A stretch of 64,000 nt of DNA from Butyrivibrio fibrisolvens (lineage in GTDB: Bacteria; Bacillota; Clostridia; Lachnospirales; Lachnospiraceae). A program made the translations under genes and the position numbers. The notes under the pieces are model-generated. The model was given only the letters and a program-made list of their open reading frames with translations, did no database searches and was not told where the DNA came from. The stretch is taken from positions 2,728,001 to 2,792,000 of the forward strand of contig NZ_CP065800.1 of the NCBI RefSeq assembly GCF_023206215.1, given 5' to 3'. This document shows positions 5,064 through 48,566 of this stretch, one piece after another (positions within the stretch are counted from its first letter, which is position 1; every line of letters begins with the position of its first letter).

Positions 5064-6047
5064 ATGAGCACCCTTAAGAAGATTTTAAAGACATTGGCAA
5101 TCCCTGCGGCTGTGGCAGTGGTATTGGAAGGAATCTGCCTTGCAAACGGGCAGACCATCATATCGGGAGCAAAGAGCTTTGATAACTTTGTGGTGTATAC
5201 AGCCATCGTTATGATCACCACCATGGCGCTCTCCATAAACTTAAACAGCGGAAGATTTGATTTTTCCCTGGGGGCAATGGCAGGACTTTCATCTGTGATA
5301 GGTGCGAAGATCACATACGTTTTTTTCAAAGGGGGCTCTGGTTCTGCACTTCTTATGCTGATAATAACGGTTCTTGCGGGAGCACTGCTGGGACTTATAT
5401 CGGGAGCTTTGTACTGCGCTTTGAGGCTTCCGCCCATTATCGTCTCTCTTGGTGTGACCCTGGTATATGAGGGAATAATGTATACCATAACAGGCGGCAA
5501 ATACCTTATGAGTGAGGTTCAGAACAGATCCATGTCAGGCTTTGTTGGAACCTGGCTTTACGCAGCTGTTATCATTGCGGCGGTTCTTATCTTTATGATC
5601 ATTGTCTTTGAGCGGACCTCCTTCGGCTATGATTACAACGCCCTTAAGTCAGGGCAGAAGGTAGCAGTAGCCACCGGTATCAATGAGGTTAAAAACGCCC
5701 TTATCTGTTACACGATCTGCGGCGGCCTTATGGGACTTGTGGGTATGCTGAATGCCGCAAGAAATACCACTATAAACGGAGGTCAACTGAATTTCGGAAG
5801 TATAGCCATTATGTTCACGGCCTTCCTTCCGATGTTCATTGCAGGCTATATCGGAAGGTTCGGAAACGAGAAGGTGGGCTTTCTGCTTTCTGCCCTGTGT
5901 ATGTCCCTTCTGAATTCCACCTTTGCGGTTTTCTCAAACCAGATAAATGCCACGACTCAGTCGATCATAAACGCAGTACTGCTGGTGATCTTCTTAATCT
6001 ATTTAAACAATAATCATTTGATCAAGAGAATATTTGCACATGTATAA
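5064..6047 (+). CDS. Sugar ABC transporter permease, second subunit (RbsC-like)
   Basis: A 327-residue membrane protein with the same plan as the permease at 2840. NLNSGRFDFSLGAMAGLSS stands at the position of the family's substrate-channel motif. It begins 16 bases after the binding-protein stop, with GGAGG at 5053-5057 fixing ATG 5064. Its 3' end overlaps the start of the hydrolase gene, so translation is probably coupled. Gene order ATPase, permease, binding protein, permease is slightly unusual; most CUT2 operons have one permease. Confidence 0.9.
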   Translation: MSTLKKILKTLAIPAAVAVVLEGICLANGQTIISGAKSFDNFVVYTAIVMITTMALSINLNSGRFDFSLGAMAGLSSVIGAKITYVFFKGGSGSALLMLIITVLAGALLGLISGALYCALRLPPIIVSLGVTLVYEGIMYTITGGKYLMSEVQNRSMSGFVGTWLYAAVIIAAVLIFMIIVFERTSFGYDYNALKSGQKVAVATGINEVKNALICYTICGGLMGLVGMLNAARNTTINGGQLNFGSIAIMFTAFLPMFIAGYIGRFGNEKVGFLLSALCMSLLNSTFAVFSNQINATTQSIINAVLLVIFLIYLNNNHLIKRIFAHV

Positions 6048-7578
6048 CGAAAAATTATTACGGGAAGCGACAGCTCTTTTCCCTGAAATAAAGAAAAATA
6101 AGATAAACGAATGTAAGTGTATCGACTTAAAGAAGGATGGGGATGTCATAAAAAGAGATCCCCGTCCGGCATATGAGTCTATCGCACTGAAAAAAGACGA
6201 CTCCATCATCCTGGATTTTGAGGATCACTATGTGGGGTACCTGTCCCTGGACCTTGGCTATGAGGGTGCGCACCCAGATTCACCGGTTCTTCTGAGAATC
6301 CGTTTTGCGGAAAGAGAGATCGAGCTTTTTGAGGATGCCTCAGAATATAAGGGCTGGGTCTCACCGGCCTGGATTGAGGAGGAGCTTATCCATGTGGACA
6401 TAGTGCCGTCTGTTGTGGAACTGGACAGGAGATACTCCTTCAGATACGTGAGGATAGAGGTGGTTGATATCAGCTCCAGATTCTCCTTAAAGGTAAATGA
6501 TGCAGCGATCACAGCAGTATCCTCTGCCCCGGATGAAGCTCTTTTGCCCTTCTACAGCAGTGATGAGCTGGACATGGAGATTGACAGGGTGGCTGTAAAA
6601 ACACTCCATGACTGTATGCAGACAGTCTTTGAGGATGGCCCCAAAAGGGACAGAAGACTATGGATCGGAGACCTGCGAATTCAGGCTCTGGTGAACTATG
6701 TCACCTACAATATGAATGACATGGTAAAGTCAAATCTTTATCTGTTCGGGGCTCTGACCCAGGAGGACGGACGGGTGGGAGCATGTATCTTCCTTGATCC
6801 GAAACCTGAGGTCGATGACACGAACATGTTTGACTATTCCCTGTTCTTTATTGTGATACTTCTGGATTACTACAAAAAGACCGGGGATAAAAAAGCTGTG
6901 CTGGATCTTTTTGATGTATGCAAAAGACAGATTGAGCTGGCAAGGCAATGCCTGGATGAGCGGCATGTGGTAAGGGACTCGGATGTTCTTGGCTGGTGCT
7001 TTGTGGACTGGAATCTTGCCCTCAACAAACAGGCCTCCGCGCAGGGAATCTTCATGTATGCTCTTGAGGCAGCCATCGAGCTTGCCCAGTGCGTCGGAGA
7101 CGTTCTTGCGGAGGAGGAATATGCGCAGCTTTATCTCAAACTCAAGGAAGCTTCCAACAGATTCCTTTATGATGTTGAAAAGAAGCTCTATGTAAGCGGA
7201 GCGGAAAGCCAGATCTCTTTTGCCTCGCAGATATGGATGGTGCTTGGAGGAGCAATGGAGGGTAAGGCAGCAGAGCGGCTCTTTGACAGAATGGAGGCCT
7301 GCCCTGAAGCAGTGACCATGGTGACTCCCTACATGTACCATAACTACATAGATGCGCTTATTAAAATTGGAAAAAAAGATGTGGCTCACAGGAAAATGTC
7401 AAAGTACTGGGGAGGAATGGTGGCAAATTCCGCCGATACCTTCTGGGAACTGTACAATCCGGAAAATCCCAACGAGTCGCCCTACGGTGGGACCATTGTG
7501 AACAGCTATTGCCATGCATGGAGCTGCGGACCGGCATATTTTCTGAGAACCTATTTTAATGATACAAAGGATGAATAA
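6040..7578 (+). CDS. GH78-like alpha-L-rhamnosidase / sugar hydrolase, cytoplasmic
   Basis: About 512 residues. The N-terminal third is a beta-sandwich typical of rhamnosidase accessory domains; residues 199-211 read DGPKRDRRLWIGD, matching the GH78 catalytic motif usually seen as DCPQRxExxGWxGD. The rest is an alpha/alpha six-hairpin barrel ending in SYCHAWSCGPAYFL. There is no signal peptide, so it would cleave imported glycosides. The ATG at 6040 overlaps the permease stop by eight bases; an in-frame TTG at 6034 is a weaker alternative. It is shorter than full multidomain GH78 enzymes. Substrate is inferred from the family, and other glycosides are possible. Confidence 0.82.
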   Translation: MYNEKLLREATALFPEIKKNKINECKCIDLKKDGDVIKRDPRPAYESIALKKDDSIILDFEDHYVGYLSLDLGYEGAHPDSPVLLRIRFAEREIELFEDASEYKGWVSPAWIEEELIHVDIVPSVVELDRRYSFRYVRIEVVDISSRFSLKVNDAAITAVSSAPDEALLPFYSSDELDMEIDRVAVKTLHDCMQTVFEDGPKRDRRLWIGDLRIQALVNYVTYNMNDMVKSNLYLFGALTQEDGRVGACIFLDPKPEVDDTNMFDYSLFFIVILLDYYKKTGDKKAVLDLFDVCKRQIELARQCLDERHVVRDSDVLGWCFVDWNLALNKQASAQGIFMYALEAAIELAQCVGDVLAEEEYAQLYLKLKEASNRFLYDVEKKLYVSGAESQISFASQIWMVLGGAMEGKAAERLFDRMEACPEAVTMVTPYMYHNYIDALIKIGKKDVAHRKMSKYWGGMVANSADTFWELYNPENPNESPYGGTIVNSYCHAWSCGPAYFLRTYFNDTKDE

Positions 7579-44292: not shown

Positions 44293-45060
44293 ATGTCAGT
44301 AGAAAATGGTGAGTGGATCATGCATGGGGTATCATGGAATGATCCTGATTGCATACACACGGTGAGCGATCTTGAGAACTATATAGAGGAGATTGGATTC
44401 CTGCCGCTTTTTGGTAATGAAGTTGCGGGATTCTCTGTAGAGGAATGGACTGATCCTAAGTACTGGTGGACTGATATCGAAGCCAAGGATCCATGGAAGT
44501 GGCGTGAGATAATCGCAAGGCGCGGCAAGATTGCTTATGGCAAGTTTTTTGATAAAAAAGCCGGGTTCATCAGTCTTAAGTGGCTCCCTTATTTTGTAAA
44601 CTATAGAAGGTCCGGATATGATTTTGATGCAAGATGGGAAGATGGCATGGCCAATCGCAGGGAGAAGTCTATCATGGATGTATATGTCTATGAGGATGAA
44701 AATGGCGATACTGTTTATAGTAACGAAAAGATTCTTTCCACAGAGCTTAAGAAAAGATGCGGTTTTGGCAAGGAAGGAAGTAAGAACTATCCTGGAATCG
44801 TAACAGGACTTCAGATGCAGACTTATCTTGTTATCACGGATTTTATCCGTAGGAAGAATAAGCGCGGAGAAGAATATGGAATGCCTGTATCTGTCATGAT
44901 GAGCCCTGAGGCTGTATGGGGTAGGAATGTTGTGACGGCTGCCTATAAGGAAAAACCAGATGAGTCCTGGATGCGGATATTCGAGCATATCAAAGAGCTA
45001 TATGGTGAATCTGATGATGCAGCAATAATTAAGATTATTGGCAAAAAGCCTTTATTCTGA
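44293..45060 (+). CDS. AlkZ-related protein
   Basis: A 255-residue soluble protein: FLPLFGNEVAGFSVEEWT, DPWKWREIIARRGKIAYGKFF, GFISLKWLPYFVNYRRSGYDFD and a second half with winged-helix-like pieces (TELKKRCGFGKEGSKNYPGIVTGLQMQTYLVITDF across a break). I recall this as the family named AlkZ-related in Clostridia, distantly like DNA glycosylases that unlink DNA crosslinks; activity here is unproven. The last residues (IIGKKPLF) lie in the overlap with a truncated ATPase frame, so the natural C-terminus may have been replaced. Confidence 0.65.
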   Translation: MSVENGEWIMHGVSWNDPDCIHTVSDLENYIEEIGFLPLFGNEVAGFSVEEWTDPKYWWTDIEAKDPWKWREIIARRGKIAYGKFFDKKAGFISLKWLPYFVNYRRSGYDFDARWEDGMANRREKSIMDVYVYEDENGDTVYSNEKILSTELKKRCGFGKEGSKNYPGIVTGLQMQTYLVITDFIRRKNKRGEEYGMPVSVMMSPEAVWGRNVVTAAYKEKPDESWMRIFEHIKELYGESDDAAIIKIIGKKPLF

Positions 45061-45739
45061 CGAAGCTACACTTTCCAAGATGATTGCAGCAGCCAATAAA
45101 AAGAAATATAAAGTTCTGGTTGCTATTGATGATATCTCTAAAACGCCTGAAATGGTAAAACTACTTTCGATGATAGGTTCTATGATACTTGAGGGAATGC
45201 AGATCTATCTGCTGGTGACAGGTCTATCAGAAAACATCGAAGAATTTTCATCCGAGAAAAATCAGACATTTTTTAAAAGAGCCGATTCCATTGAGATTAA
45301 GGCACTTAATAAATACGATATAACTGCGATGTATCAAAAGCTCTTAAAAGTAGATGCGCTGGAAGCCAAAAAGTTAGAGGAAGAAACAAATGGATACGCA
45401 TATGCCTATCAGGTGCTTGGATCTTTATATTTTGTTAAAGCAAAAGAAGAAACAATAGATGATCTTATCCCGGAATATGAGAGGATTCTATTCAGGGATT
45501 CCTATGACCTTGTGTGGAAGTCTCTTAGCAAAGGAGAGAAAGAAGTCATCAGGTGCATATGCAGATCTAAAGATGGTAAAGCTGAGAATATCAAGAACCT
45601 GATGAAAAACAAATCAACTTATCCGGTGTATCGTAGCAGACTTCTAAATAAACACATAGTTGATGCTGAAGAAAGAGGATATATAAAGATCAGATTGCCA
45701 AGATTTGAAAGATTCGTAGAAATATGGGGCAACGAGTGA
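45038..45739 (+). pseudogene. AAA-type ATPase lacking its N-terminal Walker A part
   Basis: The frame from TTG 45038 encodes about 233 residues. KKYKVLVAIDDISKTPEMVKLL is a Walker B strand with sensor-1-like IYLLVTGLSENI, and DSIEIKALNKYDITAMYQKLL, NGYAYAYQVLG and a winged-helix tail follow, the order seen in MalT/ORC-like ATP-binding proteins. The Walker A and the first 80 or so residues are missing; the frame runs straight into the preceding gene. This is a 3' remnant left after a deletion fused it to the AlkZ-related gene. Confidence 0.7.
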
Positions 45740-45994: not shown

Positions 45995-46255
45995 ATGAAA
46001 AAGATGAATAAGAAAGTTGTTATTGCCACAACTCTTGGTATAGCAAGCATGGTACTTACAGCAGCCTGCGGTTATGGGCCGGCTACATATGAACCGGATG
46101 AGGACGATAGTTCTTACGAGACCACTGCCGATGATGATACAGATAGTATAAATAGTAAGAATAGTGGTAATGATGAGTCTTCACTGGACTACACCAAGGA
46201 AGATTATCCTGAACCCGAACCTGAAGACGTATATGGACCTCCGCTAGCGTACTGA
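45995..46255 (+). CDS. Small lipoprotein with N- and C-terminal YGP motifs, candidate radical SAM substrate
   Basis: An 86-residue lipoprotein. The signal ends at lipobox TAAC with Cys25. The mature part starts CGYGPATYEP, runs through an acidic, disordered Asp/Glu/Ser spacer, and ends PEPEPEDVYGPPLAY. So a YGP-plus-Tyr motif stands at both ends (Tyr27 and Tyr80). It is 24 bp upstream of the radical SAM/SPASM gene and surely co-transcribed. Small lipoproteins paired with radical SAM enzymes are known in Bacteroidetes and Firmicutes (rSAM/lipoprotein systems); the modified residue here would be in the YGP motifs, which is my inference. Confidence 0.75.
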   Translation: MKKMNKKVVIATTLGIASMVLTAACGYGPATYEPDEDDSSYETTADDDTDSINSKNSGNDESSLDYTKEDYPEPEPEDVYGPPLAY

Positions 46256-46279
46256 ATCAATAACTTAAGGAACTGTTTT

Positions 46280-47359
46280 ATGAATAAGAATAAAATGAAA
46301 CTATCCCACCTTGATCTGCAGCACGATCTGCGACTTAAGTTCTTTGAAAAGCCTATACTAAGACAGCTTTTCTTTGAACTTACACTAAATTGCAACGAGC
46401 ACTGCTGGCACTGCGGATCAAGATGCGGTGATGTGCACTCAGATGAGATGCCACCGCAGCAGTGGAAAGAGATACTGGATCAGTTAAAAGAAGATTATGA
46501 AGGCGCTCTTCCACAGATCAATGTAACAGGAGGAGAGCCTTTATTATATTCAGGATTTGAAGAAGTTATGAGTTATGCTCATTCTTTGGGTTTTAAGTGG
46601 GGCATGACATCTAATGCTATCCTCATAACTCCGGAAGTTGCCCGGATGCTTAAAAGATGTGGCATGAACACGATCTCTGTAAGTATAGACGGCCTTCCTG
46701 AAACTCACGACAGGATCAGAGGCCTTAAAGGTGCTTATAAAAGAGCAATGGAGGGCATACAGAATCTCATAGATCTTCACTGCTTTGATAATATCATGGT
46801 TACAACTGTTGTAAATCATGAGACCATAGGAGAGTTAGAATCTCTATATAAGATCATGTGCGGCGTTGATATCGACTCCTGGCGTGTTATGGGCATAGAG
46901 CCAATAGGAAGAGCTCTAGAGCATCCAGAGCTTCTTCTTACAGATGATGATCATCGCACCATTATGGATTTTATACGCAGCAAAAGAGCTGATAACGATC
47001 CTGTAAGTTATGGCTGTTGCCACTATCTTGGCCTTGAATACGAAAGAGAAGTCAGGGACTGGTACTTTTTCTGCATGGCAGGAGTTACCGTGGCCAGTAT
47101 CACTTCCACAGGTGATGTCTACGGATGCCTTGATATCGATAGATCTCAGCCCGGTATCATACAGGGCAATATCCACGAGAGAAGATTTTCAGATATCTGG
47201 AAAAATGAGTTTAAAGCATTCCGCTATGATAAGGGCATAGAGGATGAAAAATGTGCAAACTGCGCAGATCGTAAGTACTGTATGGGTGGAGCTTTCCATA
47301 CCTGGGATTATGTATCTAAAACTCAGCGACTATGTCTTAAAAATGCATTGTTTCCATAA
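46280..47359 (+). CDS. Radical SAM/SPASM-domain peptide-modifying enzyme
   Basis: A 359-residue enzyme. The radical SAM cluster motif CNEHCWHC is at residues 38-45, followed by VTGGEPLL (SAM-binding GGE) and SVSIDGLPETHDRIRG. The C-terminus is a SPASM-type region: FFCMAG, YGCLDI, then CANCADRKYCMGG and a last Cys (RLCLKN) for auxiliary [4Fe-4S] clusters. SPASM enzymes modify peptides or proteins (AlbA, anSME, MftC, PqqE). The partner is probably the small YGP lipoprotein just upstream; the acidic lipoprotein downstream is an alternative. No protease or exporter is adjacent. Confidence 0.9.
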   Translation: MNKNKMKLSHLDLQHDLRLKFFEKPILRQLFFELTLNCNEHCWHCGSRCGDVHSDEMPPQQWKEILDQLKEDYEGALPQINVTGGEPLLYSGFEEVMSYAHSLGFKWGMTSNAILITPEVARMLKRCGMNTISVSIDGLPETHDRIRGLKGAYKRAMEGIQNLIDLHCFDNIMVTTVVNHETIGELESLYKIMCGVDIDSWRVMGIEPIGRALEHPELLLTDDDHRTIMDFIRSKRADNDPVSYGCCHYLGLEYEREVRDWYFFCMAGVTVASITSTGDVYGCLDIDRSQPGIIQGNIHERRFSDIWKNEFKAFRYDKGIEDEKCANCADRKYCMGGAFHTWDYVSKTQRLCLKNALFP

Positions 47360-47375
47360 AAACATGAGGTTAAAC

Positions 47376-48566
47376 ATGAAAAAAAGAATTATTGGATCTA
47401 TATTATTAGGAACAATTGTACTATCAGCCTGCTCTTCACCAAGTATGACCGATAGTTCTACAAGTGAATTCACAGAAAGCAGCTTAGATACTGCAAAAGA
47501 GTCTACAGAAGATTCGGGAAAATCTACAGAAGAACTATCTGCATCAGATAATTCTGCGTCTGATGATCGAGATGCATCTAATGATAGTTCTGATGAAAGC
47601 TTGACTGAAGCATCGAATAAAGCTTCAAATAAAGCTTCAAATGAATCATCAAGTGATATGCCTGAAGAAGATTCTAATACTACTGATGATGCAAAAGAAA
47701 CTAAGAGAGCTGCTGCCAAAGAAGCTTCGAGCAGAGATAAAGACAGACTTATGAATAAAGCTGCTTTAGAAGCAGGAGCTTCAGGTGATGATTCTATAAC
47801 ATATCTAATAGCTGATTATGATGGCGACGGATCTGCAGAAGGTTTTGTGTACGTTGGAGAAGACGCTGATGAATATTCTGAGTGCTATGGCACAGTATAT
47901 TATGTAGATGATGATGAATGTGATGTTGTAAAAAACGGCTATTTTAGCGGAGCTGATGTTCGGGATATTTTTAAAGAATACACAGTAGAAGACAGAGTTT
48001 TTATATGTCTGGAGGAGTCTTATACAACTTCTGTTAACTCCCTGATCTATTATATAGAAGATGGTACTTATAAAGAATCCTGCATATCAGGCCTTGGCTA
48101 TTTCTATGAGAATACAGATATTGACGGATATTGTATTATTTATAATGTATATGACTATTTTTATGATTATGAAGCCGGACATGAATCTGAGGGAGTTTTT
48201 ACAGGTCATACCTATAAAGACTATTACTTCTACTATGATCAAAAATCAGGAGATTTCAAAGAATATGTTGGCACTTTGATATCAGAAAAGGATCTTGCAA
48301 AGGCTTGCGGATTCGATCTTGCAGCACAGATTAAAAGTGAAGGATATGAGATAGGTGATATCTATAAGAGAGATAACGGTATCATCAATGTTAATTATTC
48401 CAAGACTACTCAGAATGATGATGGCAGCGGCACGATAGAATATCACAATGCAACTTTTGATGAAAACACCCAAAAGTTCGTTCCTTATGAAGGCTCTGAT
48501 GAGACATGGCAGGAATCTGATTCTGGCGGAACATATGATGATTCTATTACAAAGTACAGGCAGTAA
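47376..48566 (+). CDS. Acidic lipoprotein, paralogue of the 19860 protein
   Basis: A 396-residue lipoprotein with lipobox LSAC (Cys19) and a Ser/Asp/Glu linker of about 90 residues that includes the duplicated SNKASNKAS. From residue about 135, YLIADYDGDGSAEGFVYVGE onward, it parallels the lipoprotein at 19860 block by block (YGTVYYVDD; GVFTGHTYKDYYFYYDQKSGDF; IYKRDNGIINVNYS). It lacks that protein's discoidin-like end. ATG 47376 with GAGGT upstream is chosen; the longer frame overlaps the radical SAM gene. It starts 16 bp after the radical SAM stop, so the three genes form one operon. Confidence 0.78.
   Translation: MKKRIIGSILLGTIVLSACSSPSMTDSSTSEFTESSLDTAKESTEDSGKSTEELSASDNSASDDRDASNDSSDESLTEASNKASNKASNESSSDMPEEDSNTTDDAKETKRAAAKEASSRDKDRLMNKAALEAGASGDDSITYLIADYDGDGSAEGFVYVGEDADEYSECYGTVYYVDDDECDVVKNGYFSGADVRDIFKEYTVEDRVFICLEESYTTSVNSLIYYIEDGTYKESCISGLGYFYENTDIDGYCIIYNVYDYFYDYEAGHESEGVFTGHTYKDYYFYYDQKSGDFKEYVGTLISEKDLAKACGFDLAAQIKSEGYEIGDIYKRDNGIINVNYSKTTQNDDGSGTIEYHNATFDENTQKFVPYEGSDETWQESDSGGTYDDSITKYRQ

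Follow-up and report, generated by a model that had tools for sequence, protein, structure and literature searches.

A radical SAM/SPASM enzyme of Butyrivibrio fibrisolvens and its relatives are encoded beside diverse proteins that share an X-Tyr-Gly-Pro-Pro tag

Introduction

Pairs of a radical SAM enzyme and a small lipoprotein, recorded as the rSAM/lipoprotein families TIGR04133 and TIGR04134, are the nearest named system to the one described here, and both this kind of pairing and the enzyme class are already known. We studied such a pair at positions 45,995 to 47,359 of a 64,000-nucleotide stretch of contig NZ_CP065800.1 from Butyrivibrio fibrisolvens (the whole stretch that was analysed is called the window, and its coordinates are used throughout), where the gene of an 86-residue lipoprotein is followed by that of a radical SAM/SPASM enzyme. 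Relatives of this enzyme are mostly encoded beside proteins of differing scaffold that carry one or several copies of a short tag, X-Tyr-Gly-Pro-Pro (XYGPP; X is mostly Val or Leu), and the Tyr-Gly of this tag is very probably the target of the enzyme.

A comparable target belongs to the splicease PlpXY, which is reported to be likewise a radical SAM/SPASM system, to target X-Tyr-Gly with a variable X (PMC10533398, PMC10373908), to act on several sites per protein and to dispense with the leader (PMC10533398, PMC11002830, PMC10373908). Both lipoprotein motifs of B. fibrisolvens contain an X-Tyr-Gly site like that of PlpX substrates (GYG and VYG), and XYG is equally found in the partner proteins discussed below, which were chosen for the tag. 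In keyword searches with partial coverage of the literature, nothing turned up on the target tag, on its repetition, on its occurrence across unrelated scaffolds or on a cellulosome link; no paper naming TIGR04133 or TIGR04134 was found there, "YGPP" occurred only in papers that are unrelated by title, and none of the papers mentioning both dockerins and radical SAM points to a link between them in its title. Scott et al. 2022 (Chem) are said to cover the use of spliceases in "peptides and proteins", and that work may already hold part of the YGPP finding.

Results

The lipoprotein and the enzyme of B. fibrisolvens

The lipoprotein (45995..46255, forward strand; relatives P0003-P0009) is the presumed substrate and starts with a signal peptide and a lipobox around Cys25. 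Its first motif, C-G-Y-G-P-A-T-Y with Gly as X (residues 25-32; 46067..46090, forward), begins at the lipid anchor, and its second, V-Y-G-P-P-L-A-Y with Val as X (residues 79-86; 46229..46252, forward), forms the C-terminus and contains VYGPP, the commonest form of the tag; an acidic, low-complexity spacer separates the two. The YGPA of the first motif is a variant, with YGPP at that place in most close relatives and CGYGPP or CAYGPP in many of them. A Pfam search of the lipoprotein gave no match. After a gap of 24 nt (46256-46279) follows the enzyme of 359 residues (46280..47359, forward), which presumably matures the XYG(P)P motif. This arrangement had been noted in a preliminary description of the window, and the sequence, the Pfam matches and the invariant cysteines bear it out, from Cys25 and both motifs to the CxxxCxxC and SPASM features of the downstream enzyme.

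With a radical SAM domain (Radical_SAM, PF04055, E 5.4e-26) carrying CxxxCxxC and a SPASM domain (PF13186, E 2.3e-10), the enzyme has both features that define the radical SAM/SPASM class. Across 63 aligned relatives the three cysteines of the radical SAM motif (C38xxxC42xxC45) are invariant, and so are Cys 265, 283, 325, 328, 334 and 352, nine in total. The canonical SPASM pattern comprises seven cysteines; here there are six invariant ones, and the expected place of the missing one, position 338, is taken by Ala. In an AlphaFold2 model based on the alignment of 63 sequences (mean predicted local distance difference test score, pLDDT, 94.1; predicted template modelling score, pTM, 0.91), the closest solved folds are those of SPASM-type enzymes such as SuiB, anSME, ChlB and SkfB. 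This predicted likeness fits the SPASM class but is no proof of function, and the sequence matches in the PDB are remote (SkfB, E 1.5e-18). Of these enzymes, anSME has another motif and another target residue, CxPxR in contrast to the XYGPP found here. The top NCBIfam match is TIGR04133 (rSAM_w_lipo; 258 bits, E 1.1e-76), yet the enzyme stays below the cut-off of 425 bits, and none of eight tested relatives reaches it either (259-386 bits).

Pairing of the enzyme with tagged neighbours

Searching 99 near genomes with the enzyme (E <= 1e-40) yielded 19 copies in 18 genomes, and a neighbouring open reading frame (ORF) with an XYG tag is present at all 19 loci; counted from the ORFs, it is strictly YGPP in 15, and variant tags (YGSP, YGPS, YGPA or YGAP) stand at L002, L012, L016 and L019. 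The enzyme was further found in 18 of 393 class genomes (E <= 1e-50), giving 14 new loci with YGPP in 11 and YGVP or YGSP in two (L030, L031); no tagged neighbour was found at L032 of this set. A third set of named genomes comprises the best 80 of at least 577 relatives, picked by enzyme similarity alone; five of these loci repeat enzyme stretches of the earlier sets, so that the sets are not independent. A same-strand, ATG-started ORF with YGP[PAS] lies within 700 nt of the enzyme in 73 of the 80 loci, and a strict YGPP in 72, upstream of the enzyme in 70 of those 72. Five YGPP copies in an open frame without ATG just upstream of the enzyme at L109 bring the total to 74 within 700 nt, and a CAYGPP lipoprotein 1.3 kb downstream at L104 brings it to 75 within about 1.3 kb. 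The opposite outcome, an enzyme found mostly without a YGPP neighbour, which the preliminary description had named as evidence against itself, is not what these loci look like. Two of the five loci left over, L044 and L102, are cut short, with only 75 and 134 nt of upstream sequence, and were kept in the set.

The pairing also holds when viewed from the lipoprotein: each of its 12 strong relatives in the 99 near genomes has the enzyme in the same genome, adjacent on the same contig. A further seven hits of low significance (E 1.1e-4 to 9.1e-4), in frames of 303-798 residues, were attributed to chance in low-complexity sequence. No other neighbour recurs widely, the commonest family being present in only 7 of the 80 loci (ATG-started ORFs of at least 60 residues, blastp E 1e-8), in a survey that could overlook an RRE that is small and divergent or whose gene lies elsewhere. 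By record title, the system is also present in Actinomycetota, namely in metagenome-assembled genomes of Coriobacteriaceae (L048, L057, L060) and Eggerthellaceae (L108). The partners at L048 and L057 start with a twin-arginine-like signal (KLTRRxFTAAG) that would suggest export by the twin-arginine translocation (Tat) route.

Away from the enzyme, the tag does not stand out. The pattern TAYGGNCCNCC has 11 matches in the host genome against 20 for its reversed control, and five other enzyme-bearing genomes show no clear excess either (pattern/control 17/14, 10/10, 17/43, 17/47 and 6/4). YGPP alone is thus not diagnostic, and its position beside the enzyme is. In host frames above 100 codons it is found only in the lipoprotein, a 108-codon frame and two P-loop ATPase-like ORFs, where it reads LYGPPGTGKT and FYGPPGLGKT. 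The latter two would suit a reading in which YGPP serves docking or display only, and the enzyme has its site of action elsewhere or a different substrate altogether; we consider this very improbable, given that unrelated scaffolds beside the enzyme share nothing else that we found and that the copies are multiplied within proteins.

Repetition and core of the tag

For a closer look at the tag we gathered 124 distinct partner ORFs (19,960 residues) from loci up to L113, selected for YGPP or for two YGP[PAS]. They hold 319 copies of YGPP compared to 0.44 expected from their own composition, an excess for which only the extra copies are a fair test because the ORFs had been chosen for the tag. 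At least two YGP[PAS] are present in 97 of the 124 ORFs (1 copy in 27, 2 in 42, 3 in 22, 4 in 18, 5 in 8, 6 in 5 and 7 in 2). The tags are set in flexible segments that are acidic or rich in Thr, often several copies together, and in many ORFs the last one stops 3-5 residues short of the C-terminus.

Within these ORFs Y?PP is completed by Gly in 319 of 319 cases and ?GPP by Tyr in 319 of 320, and FGPP, WGPP and HGPP are all absent. An examination of the same ORFs that does not depend on the tag, with only the upstream context fixed, gave 105 places; Tyr is in register in 93 of them and is followed by Gly in 91 of these 93, with YEAP in the other two. The prolines are replaced more often than Tyr-Gly (YGIK, YGIA, YGIS, YGAP, YGPA). 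Since Tyr-Gly is near-fixed in this look and the prolines vary more, we regard Tyr-Gly as the core of the tag and X as variable.

This pattern bears on what the enzyme may do. The Y-G-P spacing would be compatible with the aromatic-x-x motif of triceptide maturases, which form three-residue cyclophanes, so that the Tyr ring could be joined to a nearby residue, for instance to Pro, two positions further along, at its C-beta, giving small rigid surface loops. We think this unlikely: Gly is hardly ever replaced, but Ala, Ile, Val, Ser and His all occur in the position behind it, a chemistry of the aromatic-x-x kind might tolerate the Phe, Trp or His that never replace Tyr before GPP, and a shared fold says nothing on function. 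Some other modification of the tag, be it epimerisation, an alteration of Gly or Pro or a novel reaction, would be in keeping with the many reactions that the SPASM superfamily catalyses, but such outcomes also appear unlikely, as an invariance centred on Tyr-Gly and not on the prolines argues for Tyr-centred chemistry.

The residue before YGPP is mostly Val (218 of 319) or Leu (65), followed by Ala (10), Gly (6), Ile, Met and Thr (5 each), Ser and Glu (2 each) and Asp (1). Val-Tyr as the commonest pair recalls mycofactocin biosynthesis, where the radical SAM enzyme MftC reportedly works on Tyr and the adjacent Val (PMC8326336), and a similar enzyme would oxidise Tyr and form a Val-Tyr C-C bond with the tyramine unit kept. 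The MftC family TIGR03962 is among the better matches of the enzyme, with 119.4 bits that remain under its cut-off of 265. X is not always Val and is sometimes Gly or Ala, and MftC decarboxylation requires a C-terminal Tyr while Gly follows Tyr here, which makes a reaction of this kind quite improbable.

Proteins that carry the tag

The carriers are varied. A dockerin type I match (E <= 0.001) is present in 33 of the 124 partner ORFs, DUF805 and a zinc ribbon in two each, and a carboxypeptidase-regulatory-like and a bacterial Ig-like domain in one each; some of the loci behind these counts are near-copies (L055/L061, L069/L070). Most scaffolds carry a signal or membrane segment. At the level of sequence it is the tag, and not the lipoprotein, that is the constant part, and the scaffolds differ. 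The lipoprotein with two motifs at its ends, which the preliminary description had put at the centre, is one of several forms: the tag often occurs in 2-7 copies, and carriers of other kinds are frequent, with dockerin proteins in first place.

The TIGR04134 profile does not match the B. fibrisolvens lipoprotein, was found in only 1 of 391 class genomes and has one member among the 124 partner ORFs. The partner lipoprotein at L033 passes it (52.3 bits against a cut-off of 39.8) and carries CGMYGPP, and a second lipoprotein of this type in the same genome (L141) carries MYGPP, which ties the XYGPP tag to the named system. Unlike in TIGR04133/TIGR04134, the partners here are short, acidic and often repeatedly tagged, and they also include dockerin, DUF805 and zinc-ribbon scaffolds.

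In a tree of 96 enzymes, all nine loci labelled as dockerin fall into one branch of 24 rows. Fifteen rows are labelled "none", several of them through merged identical partners, and some lipoproteins went unrecognised under the lipobox rule; because of these label gaps the tree gave no count of scaffold switches. The closely related Ruminococcus-type loci L055 (77-3988) and L061 (82-3907) each have six tagged ORFs in series upstream of a single enzyme gene, with dockerin-like repeats in at least one of them. The DUF805 membrane proteins at L110 (3237-3935) and L113 (3293-3940) have four YGPP tags each in their C-terminal tails.

Discussion

We tentatively propose a two-component protein-modification system, made up of one radical SAM/SPASM subfamily and of proteins that share only X-Tyr-Gly-Pro-Pro, as a reading that falls somewhat short of probable in its entirety. 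A stand-alone enzyme would act in the cytosol before export, without a leader peptide or a dedicated RRE protein; it would read the short tag in a flexible segment and alter its Tyr-Gly, and the modified protein would stay whole and be displayed via a lipid, membrane or dockerin anchor. Far firmer is the part that concerns the target: as the preliminary description had suggested for the YGP motifs, Tyr-Gly is very probably where the enzyme acts, given the co-occurrence, with the lipoprotein as only one of several carriers. The named but hitherto unexplained pairing of a radical SAM enzyme with a lipoprotein gains a defined target motif and testable chemistry.

This chemistry may be the excision of tyramine (-135.0757 Da per site), a suggestion made by analogy, in the sense of "works like" PlpXY, that we find conceivable and hold with some reserve. 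One of the reported PlpXY tags ends in LYGLPI and thus shares the Pro that stands two positions (+2) behind Gly (PMC10533398). Splicing of the B. fibrisolvens lipoprotein would turn its Gly26 site into aminopyruvate, a group reported to react with tetrazines (PMC10533398). No family match to a Nif11-type leader was obtained in the partner ORFs.

Several observations weigh against the proposed system and the parallel with PlpXY. Three untruncated loci among the 80 (L040, L088 and L112) have no visible tagged partner, and no experiment on any member was found in the literature searched. Against TIGR04103, the family to which we take PlpX to belong, the enzyme scores 110.5 bits with a cut-off of 725 (eight relatives, 91-127 bits), and it scores at least as high against AhbD (heme b synthase; 129.3 bits), NirJ2 (119.8) and MftC (119.4). 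A search for TIGR04103 at E 1e-80 had no matches in 398 phylum genomes, but its control was also unmatched, so that it makes no statement on absence. In the AlphaFold2 model the barrel starts near residue 29, and no RRE domain precedes it at the N-terminus. PlpX is reported to work with the RRE protein PlpY (PMC11002830), and a PlpY-like partner is neither fused to our enzyme nor seen among the neighbour families of the 80 loci, where a small divergent RRE could escape. The other reported PlpXY tag, which contains GYGVVFP, has a residue other than Pro in the +2 position, and PlpXY reportedly failed to accept many of the tag insertions (PMC10533398); for these reasons the tags resemble each other only to a limited degree, with PP dominating here.

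If tyramine is excised, electrophilic ketoamides might shield the cell surface or the cellulosome from proteases, which we regard as conceivable under that condition; a dockerin- or lipid-anchored ketoamide array would, speculatively, suit such a shield. Products of spliceases, the spliceotides, are reported as protease inhibitors (PMC11117315, PMC10373908). The cellulosome of R. flavefaciens is listed with dockerin-bearing serpins, and 118 dockerin proteins of this organism have regions of unknown function (PMC2930009). The widest version of this picture strikes us as unlikely: Bacillota of the gut and rumen, together with some Actinomycetota, would build arrays of ketoamides (or of other Tyr-Gly-derived groups) at XYGPP on flexible proteins displayed at the surface, with a stand-alone, leader-free enzyme outside the known splicease family. 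In Ruminococcus the dockerin would route these proteins into the cellulosome, so that the cell surface and the fibre-degrading complex alike would bear a covalent and electrophilic linker or shield against proteases. If true, cellulosomes would carry an enzyme-made modification, and a leader-free enzyme reading a short tag would also serve as a labelling tool. The sharing of the tag by quite different proteins, likely cellulosome parts included, suggests that the modification may be widespread.

Neighbouring genes

Only 16 nt after the enzyme follows a lipoprotein of 396 residues that is rich in Ser and Asp (47376-48566, forward strand), without a Pfam match even at E 1. The preliminary description had brought up this acidic lipoprotein as a third part of the system, an idea that we abandoned: among 142 loci a tblastn search (E 1e-3) matched those of its own genome only, within locus flanks of which many reach just 1.5 kb past the enzyme. 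It may be strain-specific.

At L112, a protein-kinase-like ORF (5374-7254, forward strand) lies beside an enzyme relative that has no YGPP partner; its N-terminus has a CxxC...CxxC ribbon and is reminiscent of the partners with zinc ribbons at L017 and L018. At 44293-45739 (forward strand) of the B. fibrisolvens window, an AlkZ-related ORF of 255 residues (PF24741, E 1.7e-81) overlaps a TTG-started ORF of 233 residues without a family match, which by eye resembles a fragment of an ATPase lacking the N-terminal half and is possibly a remnant.
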